A DNA stretch of 58,716 bases, taken from positions 1-58,716 of the forward strand of contig JAFUBM010000007.1 of assembly GCA_017460225.1 (NCBI GenBank), written 5' to 3'. This DNA is from Candidatus Saccharimonadota bacterium (GTDB lineage Bacteria > Patescibacteriota > Saccharimonadia > Saccharimonadales > Saccharimonadaceae). This document shows positions 18,001 through 53,811 of this stretch, piece after piece (the first letter of the stretch is position 1; each line of letters begins with the position of its first letter). The translations under genes and the position numbers were made by a program. The notes beneath the pieces are model-generated. The model searched no databases. It was given only the letters and a program-made list of their open reading frames with translations, and was not told where the DNA came from.

Positions 18001-19305
18001 GACGGCGCGGACGGCGAGACGGACAACGTGATTGAGCCGGAGGCGGGGGCGAAGATTCTCGATACGGTGAGCTACACAGGACTGACGCCGGGGGAGACGT
18101 ATTATCTTGAGGGGGAGGTGATGCAAAAGACGTCGAGTTCGACGGGTAAGGCGCTGGAGATTGACGGGGCGCCGGTGGCGAAGACAGCGGAGTTTACGGC
18201 GGATGCGGACGGCGCGGGGGAAGTGGAGATTCTCTTTACGTTTGATGCGAGTGAGTTGCCGGGAGAAGAGCTGGTAGTCTACGAGACGTTGTACCAGGTT
18301 ATCGACGGTACGCAGGTTACGCTGGCAGAGCACAAAGATATCAAGGACGGTAATCAGACGGTAAAAGTCCGGCCGAGGATTGGGACGAAAGCGGTAGATA
18401 AATACGATTCGGACCAGACGCTAGGCGTGGGAAGCGCGACGATTGTTGATACGGTAGCGTACGAAGGGCTGACGGATGGCGCGAGCTATACAATGAAAGG
18501 CTATCTTGTACTAGTTGATGGGACAGAGGTCTCGGAGATTGACGGAGCGGAAGCGGTGGTAGAGTTTACGATAGGCGAGGAAGGGACGGAAGAAACGGAC
18601 GGGACGGTGGAAATGGAGTTTACAATCGATACGGCGGAGTATGCCGGGAAGAAAATCGTGGTGTTTGAGGAACTATTAGATGCAGACGAGAACTTGGTAG
18701 CGGAACACAAAGATACGACGGACGCGAGCCAGACGGTTACGGTGGCGACGCCAGGAATCACGACGACGGCCAAAGACAAGCTAGACGACGACAAGGAGCT
18801 GGAACGAAATAGCACTGTAATTATTGTGGATGAAGTAGCTTATACAGGACTGGTGCCGGGGACGACTTATACTTTGCGGGGCGAGCTACGCGACAAGGCG
18901 ACGGGCGAGCTGTTCCAGCTGGCCGACGGGACGGAAGTAGAGCCAGTATACCTGGAGTTTACGCCGGACCGAGACGCTGGGTCGGTCCAGATGGAGTTTG
19001 AGTTTGACTCAACAGGCCTATCCGGAAAAGAAATCGTGGTGTTTGAGCGGCTGTATCTTGGCGAAGAGCCAGCGGAAGACGAAGAGCTGGAGGAGGAAGA
19101 TTTGATTGCGAAGCACGAAGATCTGGAAGCGTATGCCCAGACGGTCTGGGTCCGAGTTGTAACGCCAAACACTGGTGCGGTAACCCGCGGACTAGAGGGC
19201 GCAAAAGCGCGAGGGGTCTATGCGGCTTTGGCGGGAATAAGCCTAGCGAGCGTAGCCGGCTTTGTAACGCTGCGATATTATAAGAAAAATCGGTTTGGAT
19301 TCTAG
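15100..19305 (+). CDS. Thioester/SpaA/VaFE-repeat surface adhesin, 1401 aa
   Basis: Long extracellular stalk protein. An N-terminal signal/anchor (about 10-33) is followed by a thioester-like domain (about 45-225): Cys86 in HAMCLEP and Gln220 in NKQAVGW match the Cys and Gln of thioester adhesins that bond covalently to host targets. Then come three SpaA/CnaB-like domains (about 238-560) and about six VaFE-type repeats starting near 560, 703, 830, 959, 1091 and 1217, each with a TTA(K)D-like start and a VVYETLY/VVFE end whose K and E could form isopeptide bonds. The end is VTPNTG, a membrane segment (about 1368-1390) and KK, a sortase-like sorting signal but not LPxTG. Start ATG 15100 is set by the promoter and an AAAGG; a longer frame from 14860 overlaps phoH. 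Bond formation is inferred. Confidence 0.85.
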   Translation: MRAKIKISKKVLVGVLTFLASAGIFYGVFRLTTNTRATSAGKYAWVSYGTSGTQVTYGTDTWSTQQYTVTENGVSDGTRLTTHAMCLEPIHQSPVGGGSTSLTTNNNQEMIQIMLATDSAYGHSAYSALSSNVTSVAATITNMSPTSGASAIFAVGHMMVGAANGDTSHLSATDITNINNLRTTISNWFSTNAPNDWQSYDLIVLDPNVVLDGYTLANKQAVGWLELNGYTPTPTPTTETGLIQLFKYDSMTGYAAAISNGTGTLSGATFRVYKYGSSTTLATLTTGSNGFTPTYEADEDEVICFQETSAPSGYDLDDTPQCGTIVANSTVLVNMANTPTVSGGIKIRKIDATTGGSTNGGASVVGSTFVVYKYGTSTQVASFTIDTDLGANGATGQTAADALPAGSYTVKELTASTGYSLNTTQSIDFTIDSTHQGLQDYSTNSTYYFSNTVKAGDLEITKYKADKDGATTAFSGVGFKIYRVVSGTETYVSTITTDSTGKAATSGSALTYGTYKLYEVAGDNNEAYDVDESTAVATVTVGEYDGTVVTAPAVTNTLRDDPTLSTLARNSAYSSRDETGATTLPISTSAGVTDKVVFDSLTTGLLYKLEGELWVNDNTIFDPVATTEKVWEHGTESYIDVAFTNVDTSALMGKELGIIQKLYVCTGGHTAGTTTCDGDEWELLANHNENLAEADEMVTVETLGLTTRATSERATANEKTLTAGTVTVLDTVTLHGLTNGETYFIRSQLMDEDGNAITLTSGETSDLTNYIMMATTGSTVNTTMELEFDSSAYIGQTITVYETLYDSEMNELVSHKVLGDAAQSLTVVAPEIDTTAENGASSGSKTLYISSEATIKDTIVLTGLTPNTTYSLSSTVYLVEEDDDGTRTRGEKVLGPVTTGHGFTTGSSENYTAEVTLTLDTMDLAGKELVVYETLYYGTTAIALHTDPTDTDQIVTVGTLGIGTTARDGADGETDNVIEPEAGAKILDTVSYTGLTPGETYYLEGEVMQKTSSSTGKALEIDGAPVAKTAEFTADADGAGEVEILFTFDASELPGEELVVYETLYQVIDGTQVTLAEHKDIKDGNQTVKVRPRIGTKAVDKYDSDQTLGVGSATIVDTVAYEGLTDGASYTMKGYLVLVDGTEVSEIDGAEAVVEFTIGEEGTEETDGTVEMEFTIDTAEYAGKKIVVFEELLDADENLVAEHKDTTDASQTVTVATPGITTTAKDKLDDDKELERNSTVIIVDEVAYTGLVPGTTYTLRGELRDKATGELFQLADGTEVEPVYLEFTPDRDAGSVQMEFEFDSTGLSGKEIVVFERLYLGEEPAEDEELEEEDLIAKHEDLEAYAQTVWVRVVTPNTGAVTRGLEGAKARGVYAALAGISLASVAGFVTLRYYKKNRFGF

Positions 19306-20747
19306 GCTTTAGGACTATCTTCTTCTTTGTCGTCACGGAAGGAGAACATAATTGGCGTACCAACAAAGGGGTAGGTTTCTCGGAGCTTGTTCTCGAGAAA
19401 ACGTTTCCAGGACCAGTGGAGCGTAGAAAGACCGTGACCGTGGACGACAAACCAAGGCGGGCAAGTGTCGGTCTGGACGATATATTTGGGCTTGGGACGA
19501 GTGTTTTTGAGGCCGGCGGGGGCGTGTTCGAGAATAGCTTGGCTAAGAATCTTGTTGAGGTCGGAAGTCTTGAGCTCGGTATGGCGAGCGGCATCAATCT
19601 CGAGCGCGAGATCAAAGAGCTTGGTGACGTTTTCTCCTGTCTTGGCGCTAGTGAGAAGTACTGGCGCGAAGGGGAGGAAGTTGAAATCATACTCGAGATC
19701 GTCGAGGATGGATTGGACCTCCTCGGGAGTCTTAAGATCGGTCTTGGTCAAGACGACGATGATTCCCTTCCCGGCTTCGACGATTTTGCCAGCGAGAGAT
19801 TGGTCGAGCTTGGAATGAGGCTCGGTGGCGTCAACAAGCAGAGCGCAGAGATCGGCTTCTTCGATGGCGGCGAGAGTGCGAATAGCGGAGAACTTTTCTA
19901 TGCCGACTTCGCGTTTGCCGGGCTTGCGTAGACCGGCGGTGTCGAGAATCTCAAGGCTGCGGCCTTTGAACTTGAGCTCGACACGATTGACGTCGCGCGT
20001 GGTGCCCTGGCGGGAAGAGACGAGAGCTTGTTGCTTCTTGGCTAGAGAGTTGAAGAGGCTGGATTTGCCGACGTTAGGGCGGCCGATTAGCGCTATGCTG
20101 ATAGGTGCTTGATTCCCTTTTTTCGCTAGGGAAAATCCAGTCTGATTTTTCTCGACGTCCAGTCGCGCAGCTCGCAAAGCCGTTCGGGTAGCACCGGCCA
20201 CGTTTTGCTCGCCTTCGTGTCCGTCTCGAAAAATCCGTGGATTTTCTTTAGTCGCTTCAAAAAGGGAATTCAAGCACCTCTGCTTTAGCTCTTTGATTCC
20301 CTGGCCGGTGGTGGCGGAGGTGCGGAAGGTGGAGTCGGGCTTGATGCCGAGCGAGCGGAATTCGTTGTCCGGGAGCGAAGCGCCAAGGTCGGACTTGTTG
20401 AGGACAAGGAGGACCGGCTTTTTGGAGCGGAGCGCCATCTTGGCGATACGTTTGTCTTTTTCTGACGGATAAAGGGAGGAATCGAGAGCGAGTAGAATCA
20501 GGTCGGCAGAATCGATGGCGTCGAGGATTTGGTCTTGGATGGAGGCCTCAAAAGCGTCGGTGGCGTCCTTGAGACCGGCAGTGTCGATGAGAATAAAACG
20601 GTCATCAATCCGAGCGGAGACGGAGTCGCGCGTAGTGCCTTCCTCGCGGGCGACGATGGCGATGTTTTTACGCGCAAAACGGTTAAGCAAGCTGGATTTG
20701 CCAGCATTGGTTTGACCGATTAAAGCGACGACGGGGAGACGATTCAT
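19302..20747 (-). CDS. der: Ribosome-assembly GTPase Der (EngA) with in-frame repeat insertion
   Basis: Essential double GTPase for 50S assembly. First G domain: GQTNAGKSS (about 11-19), DTAGLKDA, NKSDLG. Second: GRPNVGKSSLFN, DTAGLRKPGKREVGIEKFS, TKTDLK. The C-terminal KH-like domain ends PIMFSFRDDKEED. Between the G domains, residues about 160-212 (KENPRIFRDGHEGEQ ... LDVEKNQTGFSLAKKGNQ) are not Der sequence but the translation of a palindromic repeat whose twin lies at 1886-2052; the frame stays open and normal motifs resume right after it. The extended -10 TGTTATAAT ends 9 nt before the ATG. The gene converges on the adhesin with a 4-bp overlap of ends. Confidence 0.95.
   Translation of the reverse strand: MNRLPVVALIGQTNAGKSSLLNRFARKNIAIVAREEGTTRDSVSARIDDRFILIDTAGLKDATDAFEASIQDQILDAIDSADLILLALDSSLYPSEKDKRIAKMALRSKKPVLLVLNKSDLGASLPDNEFRSLGIKPDSTFRTSATTGQGIKELKQRCLNSLFEATKENPRIFRDGHEGEQNVAGATRTALRAARLDVEKNQTGFSLAKKGNQAPISIALIGRPNVGKSSLFNSLAKKQQALVSSRQGTTRDVNRVELKFKGRSLEILDTAGLRKPGKREVGIEKFSAIRTLAAIEEADLCALLVDATEPHSKLDQSLAGKIVEAGKGIIVVLTKTDLKTPEEVQSILDDLEYDFNFLPFAPVLLTSAKTGENVTKLFDLALEIDAARHTELKTSDLNKILSQAILEHAPAGLKNTRPKPKYIVQTDTCPPWFVVHGHGLSTLHWSWKRFLENKLRETYPFVGTPIMFSFRDDKEEDSPKA
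20103..20282. repeat. Palindromic hairpin element, copy B (in frame within der)
   Basis: Core about 20122-20250 is nearly identical to copy A. The arms extend outward: GGTGCTTGATTCCCTTTTTT on the left pairs with AAAAAGGGAATTCAAGCACC on the right. These arm sequences differ from those of copy A but are again mutually complementary. Translated as about 50 residues in the Der linker. Confidence 0.88.
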
Positions 20748-48237: not shown

Positions 48238-48630
48238 TTAGATGTCGAGGTCGTCGAGATCTTCCATCTCGGCACGAGTCTTCTCGGCGAGGGTGTTGTC
48301 TTCTTCCTCTGCTTCGGCGACGGCTTCGACGGCGTCGGACTCAGCCGGAGCTTCGGGAGCGGTAATCCGGGGAAGCGGCTCAGCGTCGGTGTTGACAATC
48401 TTAAGATTATAGCGAGCGTCGTTCTTGGTGCCGAGGGCGCGAAGGAGCGTGCGAATCGACTGGGCGGTAGCACCGCGTTTGCCGATGACGCGACCGACGT
48501 CTTCTGGGTCGACCGAAAGGGAGAGTAGAACGCCTTTTTCGTCTATCTTGCGTTCGACGGAAACTTTATCGGGGTTGTTGACGAGGGTTTTCACGATATA
48601 TTCTACAAATTGCTGGTCAATGGTAGCCAT
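48238..48630 (-). CDS. khpA: KH-domain RNA-binding protein KhpA
   Basis: About 130 residues; the family core is about 75-80. FVEYIVKTLVNNPDKVSVER, then VDPEDVGRVIGKRGATAQSIRTLLRALG with the GKRG of the KH domain (about 49-52). The second half (from about residue 90) is an acidic, disordered-looking extension (EAPAESDAVEAVAEAEEEDN ... EMEDLDDLDI). KhpA works with KhpB/Jag as a small-RNA and mRNA binder affecting cell division. Its place beside rpsP is conserved in many bacteria. Start ATG 48630 has TTGGAG 6-7 nt before it. Confidence 0.92.
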   Translation of the reverse strand: MATIDQQFVEYIVKTLVNNPDKVSVERKIDEKGVLLSLSVDPEDVGRVIGKRGATAQSIRTLLRALGTKNDARYNLKIVNTDAEPLPRITAPEAPAESDAVEAVAEAEEEDNTLAEKTRAEMEDLDDLDI

Positions 48631-48659
48631 GGGGTTCTCCAAGTTAGGTTAGTGAATCT

Positions 48660-48668: not shown

Positions 48669-48692
48669 TAAAAATACTTATACACAACAAAA

Positions 48693-48834
48693 AAGGCTCG
48701 TTGCTTGCGGTCGGAAGTTCCTTTTGGGGGCCGGCCTCCTGCGCGCCCGTCGTTACGGGGCTCCGGGGCCTTAATCCTCGGTCGTAACCTCCGGACACCC
48801 CCAAAACGAACCTTCCTCCCCGCAACCGAGCCTT
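48693..48834 (-). repeat. Palindromic hairpin element, candidate copy C / terminator of rpsP
   Basis: 142 bp that begin at the rpsP stop codon. On the minus strand GGCTCGGTTGC pairs with GCAACGAGCC, TTTTGGGGG with CCCCCAAAA, and GGAAG/CTTCC between them; the inner part has GTTACG/CGTAAC. TTTTTT follows the last stem, so it can terminate rpsP transcription. The inner part shares TCCTCG-2 nt-GTA-2 nt-CTCCGGA with the leuS insertion, so kinship with the other hairpins is suggested but weak. It could also be a processed structured RNA. Confidence 0.65.
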
Positions 48835-49171
48835 AAGCTTCCGCCGCAGGCTCTTCCTTGGGCTGGTTTTTGCGGAGCTTGTCGGCGTGTTTGGCCTTGG
48901 CGGATTTTTTAGGCGCGGGCTTGTACCAAGCCGGGAGTTTGACGCCGTTTTTCTCTAAGATGAGAGCGACACGAGAAGAAGGCTGGGCGCCGTTTTTGAG
49001 GTAGAACTCGACCTTTTCCTTGTCGAGGACGAGCTTTTTGGTTTCTGGGTGATACGAGCCGACCTCGGCCACAACGCGCCCAGAAAGAGGGTGACGCTGG
49101 GATTCTTGGACGACTATCCGGTACACCGGGAGGTGTGCGCGGCCATTACGCTGCATACGAATCGCGAGCAT
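48833..49171 (-). CDS. rpsP: 30S ribosomal protein S16 (bS16)
   Basis: 112 residues. MLAIRMQRNGRAHLPVYRIVV, DSRxPRDGR-like region here as ESQRHPLSGRVVAEVGSYHP, and LKNGAQPSSRVALIL are diagnostic. The tail is Lys/Ala-rich (KKSAKAKHADKLRKNQPKEE). Promoter TTGCCA-17-TAAAAT upstream and AGGAG 6 nt before the ATG. The stop codon is the edge of the hairpin element. Confidence 0.95.
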   Translation of the reverse strand: MLAIRMQRNGRAHLPVYRIVVQESQRHPLSGRVVAEVGSYHPETKKLVLDKEKVEFYLKNGAQPSSRVALILEKNGVKLPAWYKPAPKKSAKAKHADKLRKNQPKEEPAAEA

Positions 49172-51330: not shown

Positions 51331-53811
51331 TTAGGCCACGAGGTTCAAGAGGTGGGCGTGGGGGACGTAGATGGATTTTTTGGGCTTACCGGAGACGAAC
51401 TTCTGGACGTTGGTATCTTTGAGCGCGAGAGCGATAACCTTGTCTTCATCTTCTGTGTCGGCGACGGGGACGGAGAGCTTGGCGCGGAGCTTGCCGTTGA
51501 CCTGGACAACAACTTCGACAACGTCGGCGGCGAGCTTGGACTCGTCCCAAGTAGGCCAGACGTCGTCAGCCTTGAGGCTCTCCAGCATCTCGGAGGCGAG
51601 GTGCGGAGCAAAGGGCTTCAGCAGCTTACCTAAGATAATCAAGTCTTCCTTGGAGGCGCCGGATTTGTAGAGCTCGTTGACGTATTCCATCAAAGCGGCG
51701 ACAGCGGTGTTGAAGCTGGCGCGATGGAGGTCCTGGGTGACTTTTTTGATGGTTTTGTGCCTGATCTGCTCTGTTTTGGCGGCTATAACGGCGAACGATT
51801 CTTTGTCGGAGGCGCGTCGCGCCAGCCCGCCGTCGCGGGTGTCGCGCGCTCGTCCTCGCCGTAGCTCCGGATCCTCCGACGAAAGAACATTCGCCTCGCC
51901 GCCAAAACATAAAGTCCAGCAGCGGTTTAGGAAGCGGTAGACGCCGCCGACACCTTTGGTGGACCAGGCGGCATCTTCGTTGTAGGGACCGATAAACATT
52001 TCGTAAGTGCGGAGCGTGTCGGCGCCGTAGCCGGAGTCGATGACATCGAGCGGGTCGATGACGTTGCCCTTGCTCTTACTCATTTTTTTGCCGTCGGGCG
52101 CGTTGATGTAGCCGTTGTAAAGGAGCTTCTTGATTGGCTCACGGAAAGGCAGGAGGCCGAGGTCAGCAAAGAATTTGCACCAGAAGCGGACGTAGAGCAG
52201 GTGTGCCACGGCGTGGTCACCGCCAACGTAGATGTCCGTGGGCGCCCAGTATTTGATCAGCTCGGGATCCCAAGCGTGCTCTGTGTCATGCGCGGAGACG
52301 TAGCGCCAGAGATACCAGGAAGAACAGGCGTAGCCATCGAGGGTGTCGGTCTCGCGGGTCATCTCTTCCCCGTCAACTGTGACTTTGAGCCAATCCTTAG
52401 CTTTGGCGAGGGCGGAACGGCCGGATTTATCGGGCGCATAATCTTTAACTTCGGGGTGAATGACCGGGAGTTGGTCTTCTGGGATGGGGTGGGGATGGCC
52501 GGACTTGTCATAAGCGATAGGAATGGGGCAGCCCCAGTAGCGCTGGCGGGAAATCAGCCAGTCGCGCATCTTGTAAGTGACCTTTTTGTGGCCGATACCG
52601 CGAGACTCAAGCCAAGCAACGATGGATTCACGAGCTTCGGCAGAGGCGAGACCGGTAAACTCACCAGAGTTAACGAGCGTACCCTCGCCGTGATAACACC
52701 GCTCAGCGGCGAGATCTTTGGGCGGCTCGACAACGGCGATGACGGGGAGAGAAAACTTTTCGGCAAACTCAAAGTCACGCTCGTCGTGGGCCGGGACGGC
52801 CATAATGGCACCGGTGCCATAGCCAGAGAGAACGTAGTCGGCGACCCAGATGGGGATTTGCTCACCGTTGACGGGATTGATGGCATAGGAGCCGGTAAAG
52901 ACACCCGTCTTCTCTTTGTTTTCTTGGCGTTCGATCTCGGACTTCTTCAGTGCGGATTTGATGTAGGCTTCGACAGCGGGCTTGGTGTCTGGAGTAACGA
53001 GGGATTTGACCAGCGGGTGCTCCGGAGCGAGGACCAGGAAGGTGGCGCCAAAGAGCGTGTCTGGACGGGTGGTAAAAACGGTGATTTTTTTGGCAGAGCC
53101 TTTTTCTAAAGTGAAATCGACTTCTGCGCCTTCGGAGCGGCCGATCCAGTTGCGCTGGGCGGTCTTAATCTTCTCTGGCCAATCGAGCGAGTCGATGTCG
53201 GCTAGAAGCTCGTCGGCGTAGGCGGTAATCTTGAAGAACCACTGTTTCATCTTCTTCTTTTCGACTTCGTGACCACAGCGCCAGCAACAACCATTCTCGA
53301 CCTGTTCGTTGGCGAGGACGGTTTGGTCTACGGGGCACCACCACTGGTAAGATTCCTTTTGGTAGGCGAGGCCTTTCTCGAAGAGCTTGAGGAAGCACCA
53401 CTGAGTCCATTTGTAATACTCGGGATCACTGGTGTTGATCTCGCGCGACCAGTCGATGGCATAGCCGAGCTTTTTGGCTTGCTTGCGGAAGTTCGCGATG
53501 TTGGTGGCGGTGGCGGCTTGGGGAGAGATGCCGGTCTTGATGGCGTAGTTTTCGGCGGGGAGGCCGAAGGTGTCGTAGCCGAAAGGACGGAGGACGTTTA
53601 GCTCCTGCTGAGTGTAGAAACGGGTAAGGACGTCGACGATGGTGAAGTTGCGGACGTGGCCAACGTGGAGCCCGGCGCCGGAGGGATACGGGAACATCTC
53701 GGCGAGGAACATCTTAGGTTTCTTAGACGTGTCGTCCGCGCGGAAAGCCTGCGATTTTTCCCAGCGGGCTTGCCACTTGGCTTCGATTTCAAGAGGATTG
53801 TAACGATTCAT
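51331..53811 (-). CDS. leuS: Leucyl-tRNA synthetase with in-frame palindromic insertion
   Basis: 826 residues. HIGH motif as FPYPSGAGLHVGHVRNFTIVD (in part, about 36-52), zinc-type CWRCGHEVEKKKMKQWFFKIT (about 178-198), editing-domain VFTTRPDTLFGATFLV, TIMA-like GTGAIMAVPAHDERDFEFA, and KMSKS in DGKKMSKSKGNVIDP. The leucine-specific WP and DWLISRQRYWGCPIP motifs are present. Between RFLNRCWTL and IRHKTIKKVTQDLH, residues about 635-680 (FGGEANVLSSEDPELRRGRA ... ARRASDKESFAVIAAK) are the translation of a 136-bp hairpin, placed in a variable linker before the anticodon-binding domain. An extended -10 ends 6 nt before the ATG; leaderless. Confidence 0.96.
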   Translation of the reverse strand: MNRYNPLEIEAKWQARWEKSQAFRADDTSKKPKMFLAEMFPYPSGAGLHVGHVRNFTIVDVLTRFYTQQELNVLRPFGYDTFGLPAENYAIKTGISPQAATATNIANFRKQAKKLGYAIDWSREINTSDPEYYKWTQWCFLKLFEKGLAYQKESYQWWCPVDQTVLANEQVENGCCWRCGHEVEKKKMKQWFFKITAYADELLADIDSLDWPEKIKTAQRNWIGRSEGAEVDFTLEKGSAKKITVFTTRPDTLFGATFLVLAPEHPLVKSLVTPDTKPAVEAYIKSALKKSEIERQENKEKTGVFTGSYAINPVNGEQIPIWVADYVLSGYGTGAIMAVPAHDERDFEFAEKFSLPVIAVVEPPKDLAAERCYHGEGTLVNSGEFTGLASAEARESIVAWLESRGIGHKKVTYKMRDWLISRQRYWGCPIPIAYDKSGHPHPIPEDQLPVIHPEVKDYAPDKSGRSALAKAKDWLKVTVDGEEMTRETDTLDGYACSSWYLWRYVSAHDTEHAWDPELIKYWAPTDIYVGGDHAVAHLLYVRFWCKFFADLGLLPFREPIKKLLYNGYINAPDGKKMSKSKGNVIDPLDVIDSGYGADTLRTYEMFIGPYNEDAAWSTKGVGGVYRFLNRCWTLCFGGEANVLSSEDPELRRGRARDTRDGGLARRASDKESFAVIAAKTEQIRHKTIKKVTQDLHRASFNTAVAALMEYVNELYKSGASKEDLIILGKLLKPFAPHLASEMLESLKADDVWPTWDESKLAADVVEVVVQVNGKLRAKLSVPVADTEDEDKVIALALKDTNVQKFVSGKPKKSIYVPHAHLLNLVA
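51773..51908. repeat. Palindromic hairpin element, copy D (in frame within leuS)
   Basis: Left arm 51773-51812 (GTTTTGGCGGC ... GGCGAACG ... TTCTTTGTCGGAGG) pairs with right arm 51873-51908 (CCTCCGAC-AAAGAA ... TTCGCC ... GCCGCCAAAAC) with a few mismatches and one bulge. The GC-rich loop region encodes RRGRARDTRDGGLARRAS. Same architecture as the element in der; sequence kinship to copy C is short, to copies A and B weak. Confidence 0.8.

Follow-up and report, generated by a model that had tools for sequence, protein, structure and literature searches.

What is the 142 bp hairpin that lies between rpsP and khpA in a Candidatus Saccharimonadota genome and whose outer stem begins at the rpsP stop codon? 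The stretch of DNA analysed here (58,716 nucleotides of contig JAFUBM010000007.1, hereafter the window) had been annotated initially from its letters and open reading frames. In that annotation, the hairpin was proposed to belong to one group with an insert in leuS and to act as terminator, RNase III substrate or structured RNA. The hairpin itself is real. The rpsP strand of window positions 48680-48850 folds with -86.9 kcal/mol (z -5.1), with none of 200 shuffled sequences being as stable, and the fold of the opposite strand (48693-48850) has a z of -2.6. The stem starts at the TAA stop of rpsP (minus strand, 48833-48835), and the T6 run noted beyond the last stem is also present on the rpsP strand, with two of its bases inside the outer stem. 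The initial annotation had found no likeness to SRP RNA, RNase P RNA, tmRNA or 6S RNA. This agrees with our Rfam search of the window, in which no family reached its gathering score except one tRNA. At the hairpin, nothing credible was obtained up to E = 10, the best sub-threshold match being eiav_FSE (E = 0.078, 17 bits compared with a gathering score of 40). As set out below, a palindromic element is dispersed through the genome, and the rpsP hairpin is one of its copies rather than a lone non-coding RNA. Its parts and neighbours are listed in Table 1.

Table 1. Coordinates in the window of the hairpin behind rpsP, its parts, the neighbouring genes and the second copy in leuS.
Feature	Coordinates	Strand	Basis or remark
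Palindromic element with outer stem	48693-48834	-	Folding and dispersed copies
121 bp unit, starts GCTTGCGGTC, ends CCCCGC	48703-48823	+	99% identity with G000:C10:61576-61696
Covariance model R1 match (core and inner stem)	48708-48821	+	93.6 bits; rpsP copy in training set
Core hairpin 1, CCCGTC-N-T-N-ACGGG type	48746-48759	+	Stem invariant in 31 aligned copies
Core hairpin 2, CCTCGG...CCTCCGGA type	48776-48795	+	Sequence and core alignment
Outer arm, site-specific	48693-48700	+	Pairs with 48827-48834, outermost 8 bp
Outer arm	48827-48834	+	Overlaps first two bases of rpsP stop (last two in minus-strand direction)
T6 run after last stem, rpsP strand	48689-48694	-	With 8 bp stem, probable terminator
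rpsP (ribosomal protein S16)	48833-49171	-	ORF and protein match
khpA (KH domain protein)	48238-48642	-	ORF and protein match
Second family copy, in frame inside leuS	51772-51909	+	Arms 51772-51783 and 51898-51909, outermost 12 bp perfectly complementary
leuS, 826 aa, hosts second copy	51331-53811	-	ORF intact

We searched the genome of the window (G000; 694,526 bases, 20 contigs) with a DNA query of 166 bases around the hairpin. Eight matches were obtained, the rpsP copy included. One of them is a 121 bp copy on contig C10 (locus L002) which is 99% identical and lies directly behind a dus-like gene, and five are diverged copies or part-copies on contigs C7, C5, C4 and C8. A covariance model was then built from 31 copies of several genomes, with the rpsP copy included and the leuS insert left out, and found nine copies in this 0.69 Mb genome. 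Within the window, it matched the hairpin at 48708-48821 (E = 1.1e-27) and leuS at 51788-51897 (E = 6e-21), the third-best match there reaching E = 0.038. Since a model made without the leuS insert finds that insert, the similarity between the two is homology, and the proposed grouping of hairpin and leuS insert is borne out. The core alignment of the 31 copies shows changes on both sides at 14 of 22 predicted pairs, and no variation in the stem CCCGT/ACGGG that closes the loop. Further host genes in G000 were recognized by protein match as CTP synthase (pyrG), an M1 peptidase and a tRNA/rRNA methyltransferase-like protein, and by its motifs as the class I tRNA synthetase ValRS (valS). The eighth DNA match, 21 bases long and exact, corresponds to an end of the element with nothing else attached (G000:C4:7527-7547; L007 1501-1521). 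It lies ca. 1 kb away from the copy in valS and is perhaps a remnant. An AlphaFold model of LeuRS with its insert reached a mean pLDDT of only 57, the insert (residues 639-672) being coil at values below 50 like much of the model, which is therefore uninformative on the insert.

Copies are widespread among close relatives of the window's genome. Using the C10 copy as query, matches were found in 73 of 100 genomes of the same genus (E up to 0.001). The covariance model matched 79 of 246 genomes of the same family, distributed over 13 of 61 genera, and 6 of 286 genomes in a sample of the phylum; four of these six belong to the window's own family and the two elsewhere gave weak single matches. 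In GTDB genomes, the exact core pattern occurred in 53 stretches, all titled Candidatus Saccharibacteria and mostly from ruminant guts. Viral contigs were rejected as carriers, the exact core having 0 matches in them. The orientation of the copies varies. They are intergenic or lie in frame within essential genes, namely leuS, valS and pyrG in G000 and lepA, ileS and others in relatives.

The element is present in some genomes and absent from others at the same gene site. In case of the ValRS linker, an insert of at least 90 nt was found in 20 of 68 readable loci and was missing from 48. Because 40 of the 70 ValRS loci were selected for their apparent lack of an insert (two of the 70 failed the motif search) and the IleRS and LepA loci were the 30 best matches to queries that themselves carry an insert, filled fractions of this kind are not frequencies. 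Both flanking motifs lie in one frame at 68/70 ValRS, 30/30 IleRS and 31/31 LepA loci, and stops between the motifs were seen only in one split lepA. Uninterrupted linkers of the three genes are short (15-75 nt). Among distinct copies with enough flanking sequence, 51 of 99 lie in a frame that stays open across the element and for at least 270 nt on each side (29 oriented one way, 22 the other), a share that is biased because some loci were fetched for such genes; for comparison, 412 of 957 random windows of equal size drawn from these loci were open. Of the 54 places with the exact core, 30 lie within genes.

A separate observation concerns lepA (EF4), which in many genomes of the genus is split precisely in the linker that holds the hairpin in others (L116 in G080, L128-L141 and L143; for example G018:C35, G023:C5, G046:C4, G072:C4, G093:C3 and G030:C25). 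The GTPase half ends in a stop and the second half has its own start. The halves are 0.1-8 kb apart with whole genes between them, and in G030 they are located on opposite strands.

A core of ca. 65 nt, made up of two small hairpins, and the inner stem are common to different sites, and the outer stem is specific to each site. Across 84 copies, the two outer arms of one copy are complementary with a median local score of 12, compared with a median of 5 for arms taken from different copies, and a score of 12 was reached by 12 of 6,972 such cross pairs. Further, 62 out of 67 copy pairs whose cores differ at no more than two positions have unrelated outer arms, and in 60 both copies are self-complementary; these pairs are not independent since several of them involve the same copy. 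The rpsP copy and L002 likewise differ in their outer arms. Strict stem scoring gave a Y core at 133 of 139 places, with a median of 24 pairs and at least 20 pairs at 115 places. These arm and stem counts cover only places with a CCCGTC-type hairpin and enough flanking sequence and leave out other core families found at the same gene sites, which account, to give one case, for 11 of the 17 ValRS inserts with paired arms. The G+C content is 0.70 in the core, 0.63 in the inner stem, 0.41 in the outer stem and 0.46 in the flanks. Within G000, the site-specific part is short, amounting to ca. 8-14 bp at rpsP, L002, L004, L005 and L008 and to almost nothing at L003 and L006, and is shorter than in G082 or G085.

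Two host genes bear on the origin of the arms. At lepA, the upstream arm encodes GPxP(R), a stretch also found at the end of the N-terminal half in the uninterrupted gene of G088 and in split lepA, and the downstream arm is the reverse complement of the upstream one. In leuS of the window, the upstream arm of 12 nt codes for FGG, part of a CFGG motif that is present in some relatives without the insert, and the downstream arm of 12 nt codes for AAKT. As read from the sequences, this points to outer arms copied from the upstream side. Comparisons at ValRS, LepA and IleRS yielded no truly empty site of high DNA identity, the best filled and empty ValRS pairs being only ca. 85% identical, and the native arm at ValRS is not provable because relatives are distant and linkers too variable.

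We consider it likely that the hairpin is a mobile palindromic DNA element of Saccharibacteria which would acquire its outer arms by fold-back copying of host sequence and which, at rpsP, has come to occupy the position of a terminator. The travelling part would consist of the core together with the inner stem, up to 121-130 bp in G000, and the outer stem at many sites would represent host sequence from the vicinity together with its reverse complement. If a strand ends in the folded core, it may prime on itself (fold-back DNA synthesis) and copy the neighbouring host strand in reverse, which would lengthen the palindrome. Both arms would afterwards be kept complementary by template switching inside the hairpin. 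That this amounts to a new mode of spread, in which a hairpin core copies adjoining host DNA on insertion and so gains a 12-25 bp site-specific stem with mutually correcting arms, is a more tentative suggestion to which we give somewhat less than even weight.

Alternatively, the outer stem might be older than the insertion, if loops of existing hairpins such as terminators are the preferred insertion sites of the core. Terminator hairpins do occur at this position behind rpsP in relatives, the 8 bp outer stem and T6 of the rpsP copy have the look of one, and L002 is situated just behind the dus-like gene. We nevertheless regard such an origin as unlikely. Site-unique stems of 20-plus bp in coding genes would all need to pre-exist, including those in ValRS, IleRS and LepA linkers that are only 15-75 nt long when uninterrupted, and the outer arms of L002 turn from T-rich to A-rich, a polarity that does not fit a terminator.

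Our preferred reading places the upkeep of the stem at the DNA level. If mRNA pairing were under selection, G-U pairs would be tolerated on the sense strand. We counted 33 G-U and 57 A-C pairs on this strand in 76 intragenic copies. G-U pairs are not in excess over A-C pairs, and a DNA-level process such as template switching therefore fits better than mRNA folding, so that arm pairing looks to be maintained by DNA copying. An ileS insert inherited in five genomes has kept its inner stem, and its outermost pairs change on both sides together. Template switching is described as able to create and repair hairpin stems (PMC8794818). Single-base bulges recur ca. 19-21 positions out on the 3' arm (mostly a pyrimidine) and ca. 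12-15 positions out on the 5' arm (mostly a purine), at a roughly fixed distance from the core although the stem sequence differs. This suggests some structural recognition and counts against pure copying, which would erase mismatches.

If the hairpin were instead a functional RNA, for example an RNase III site, an mRNA stabilizer or a cis-regulator, its pairing would be under selection in the transcript and compensatory changes would follow. The two-sided changes at 14 of the 22 core pairs and the recurring bulge positions are in line with this, as is the neighbouring gene rnc, which alone means little. Intragenic copies in both orientations, the unrelated outer arms on nearly identical cores, the missing G-U excess and the absence of an Rfam match all weigh against it, and we hold a role of this kind to be quite improbable.

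For the more specific case of an RNA dedicated to rpsP, 30 rpsP loci including that of the window were inspected. Most relatives have a plain short GC stem and a T-run directly behind rpsP. The element was found in none of the other 29 loci, and a dedicated leader or trailer RNA of rpsP was rejected on this ground. The structured RNA considered in the initial annotation accordingly finds no footing in the rpsP-khpA gap of relatives, and the dispersal of copies, which point either way and lie within genes as well as between them, also speaks against it. At L046 (G049) and L052 (G017), the gap behind rpsP holds large hairpins with a different sequence. The suggested terminator function fared better in part. 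The outermost 8 bp stem followed by T6 has the form of an intrinsic terminator and sits at the terminator position of the relatives, from which we infer that the rpsP copy probably still ends rpsP transcription. A simple terminator scan does not call the hairpin because its loop is too long.

Two further explanations can be treated briefly. A spliced or ribosome-bypassed intervening sequence (an intron or byp-like element) would suit the location of inserts in essential genes, and two bulges flanking ca. 6 bp resemble a bulge-helix-bulge motif. The frame is kept at the ValRS, IleRS and LepA sites and stops are absent except in the one split lepA, which neither splicing nor bypass would require, and we set this very improbable possibility aside. 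An ordinary rpsP terminator with an unusually long stem and nothing more would explain position and T6 but is refuted as a complete explanation by the 99% identical 121 bp copy elsewhere in G000 and the covariance-model match inside leuS, leaving it hardly any probability.

Searches with two protein families (PF01797 and PF00078) identified neither a mobilizing enzyme nor a parent transposon. Y1_Tnp (PF01797) was detected in 3/100 genomes of the genus and not in G000, with 5/14 control genomes positive, and the IS200/RAYT transposase of REP/RAYT systems was rejected as mover since Y1_Tnp is this scarce. Reverse transcriptase (PF00078) was found in 61/100 genus genomes. It was absent by PF00078 from G003, G026, G036, G046 and G055, each of which has at least 15 model matches; a reverse transcriptase is therefore not required, and it was discarded as mover. 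It is possible that the element spreads by host replication and repair alone. The reverse transcriptase genes themselves (G000:C4:1129-1683 in the window's genome) have open frames of mostly 350-450 aa and are possibly of the diversity-generating type, as we presume.

Small mobile palindromes that survive in frame in essential genes are best known from Rickettsia. The element described here would be a second case, in another phylum and common in a genus of rumen-type Saccharibacteria. In titles and abstract openings, we found no published account of such elements in Saccharibacteria, a search that does not establish absence from print. Rickettsia palindromic elements (RPE) are likewise short (ca. 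150 bp), palindromic and divided into several families, belong to a small-genome host-dependent bacterium and often lie in frame in unrelated essential genes (PMC10969869). We set the Saccharibacteria element beside RPE for its way of life; the phylum is different, the sequence is probably unrelated, and all 53 exact-core stretches in GTDB are from Saccharibacteria. The arms of RPE reportedly become less alike over time (PMC6649704), whereas the Saccharibacteria arms are site-specific and kept complementary. RPE are also said to encode a conserved peptide; the intragenic copies studied here are open in both orientations (29 and 22) and read as two different peptide types.

The coding palindromes of nematomorph mitochondria are inverted repeats in protein genes, and their upkeep is attributed to template switching or repeat conversion; they resemble our element in being locus-specific and maintained within protein genes (PMC6649704). 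They differ in that they are found in an organelle and have perfect arms of up to 284 bp, and the abstract and discussion of that report mention no shared mobile core. Hairpins made by template switching share the one-step origin of reverse-complement arms and the multi-base two-sided changes (PMC8794818). They represent a mutation process without a mobile core, which in Saccharibacteria would act around one. REP and REPIN sequences are dispersed bacterial palindromes as well; REPs are listed as being 20-40 bp long with sequence-conserved arms, unlike the present element, and Y1_Tnp is missing from G000. The terminal inverted repeats of MITEs are part of the element and are flanked by direct duplications. 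In the Saccharibacteria element, by contrast, inner arms are common to copies and the outermost arms are host-like and site-variable, and the flanks showed inverted rather than direct similarity in the individual copies inspected. MITEs are otherwise comparable in being small and non-autonomous, in having inverted repeats and in that they may be inserted in frame within genes (PMC10969869).

The site-specific arms make an old question testable, namely whether hairpin stems, and the covariation from which RNA structure is deduced, can be created and kept by DNA copying rather than by selection on RNA. For annotation, this means that a long hairpin in these genomes should not be taken for a functional RNA on the strength of its conserved look and many compensatory changes. 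Likewise, where aminoacyl-tRNA synthetases and lepA have variable inserts, these should be viewed as mobile-element remnants.

Palindromes are not limited to the core described above. The ValRS, IleRS and LepA linkers (L098-L127, L148-L217 and L258-L287) hold palindromes with several unrelated cores across genomes, all of them in frame. In the window, another long palindrome with a different core is located at 20103-20279, in frame in der (ORF 19302-20747, 481 aa). Its arms measure 21 nt with one slip, and it probably represents another family of the same kind.
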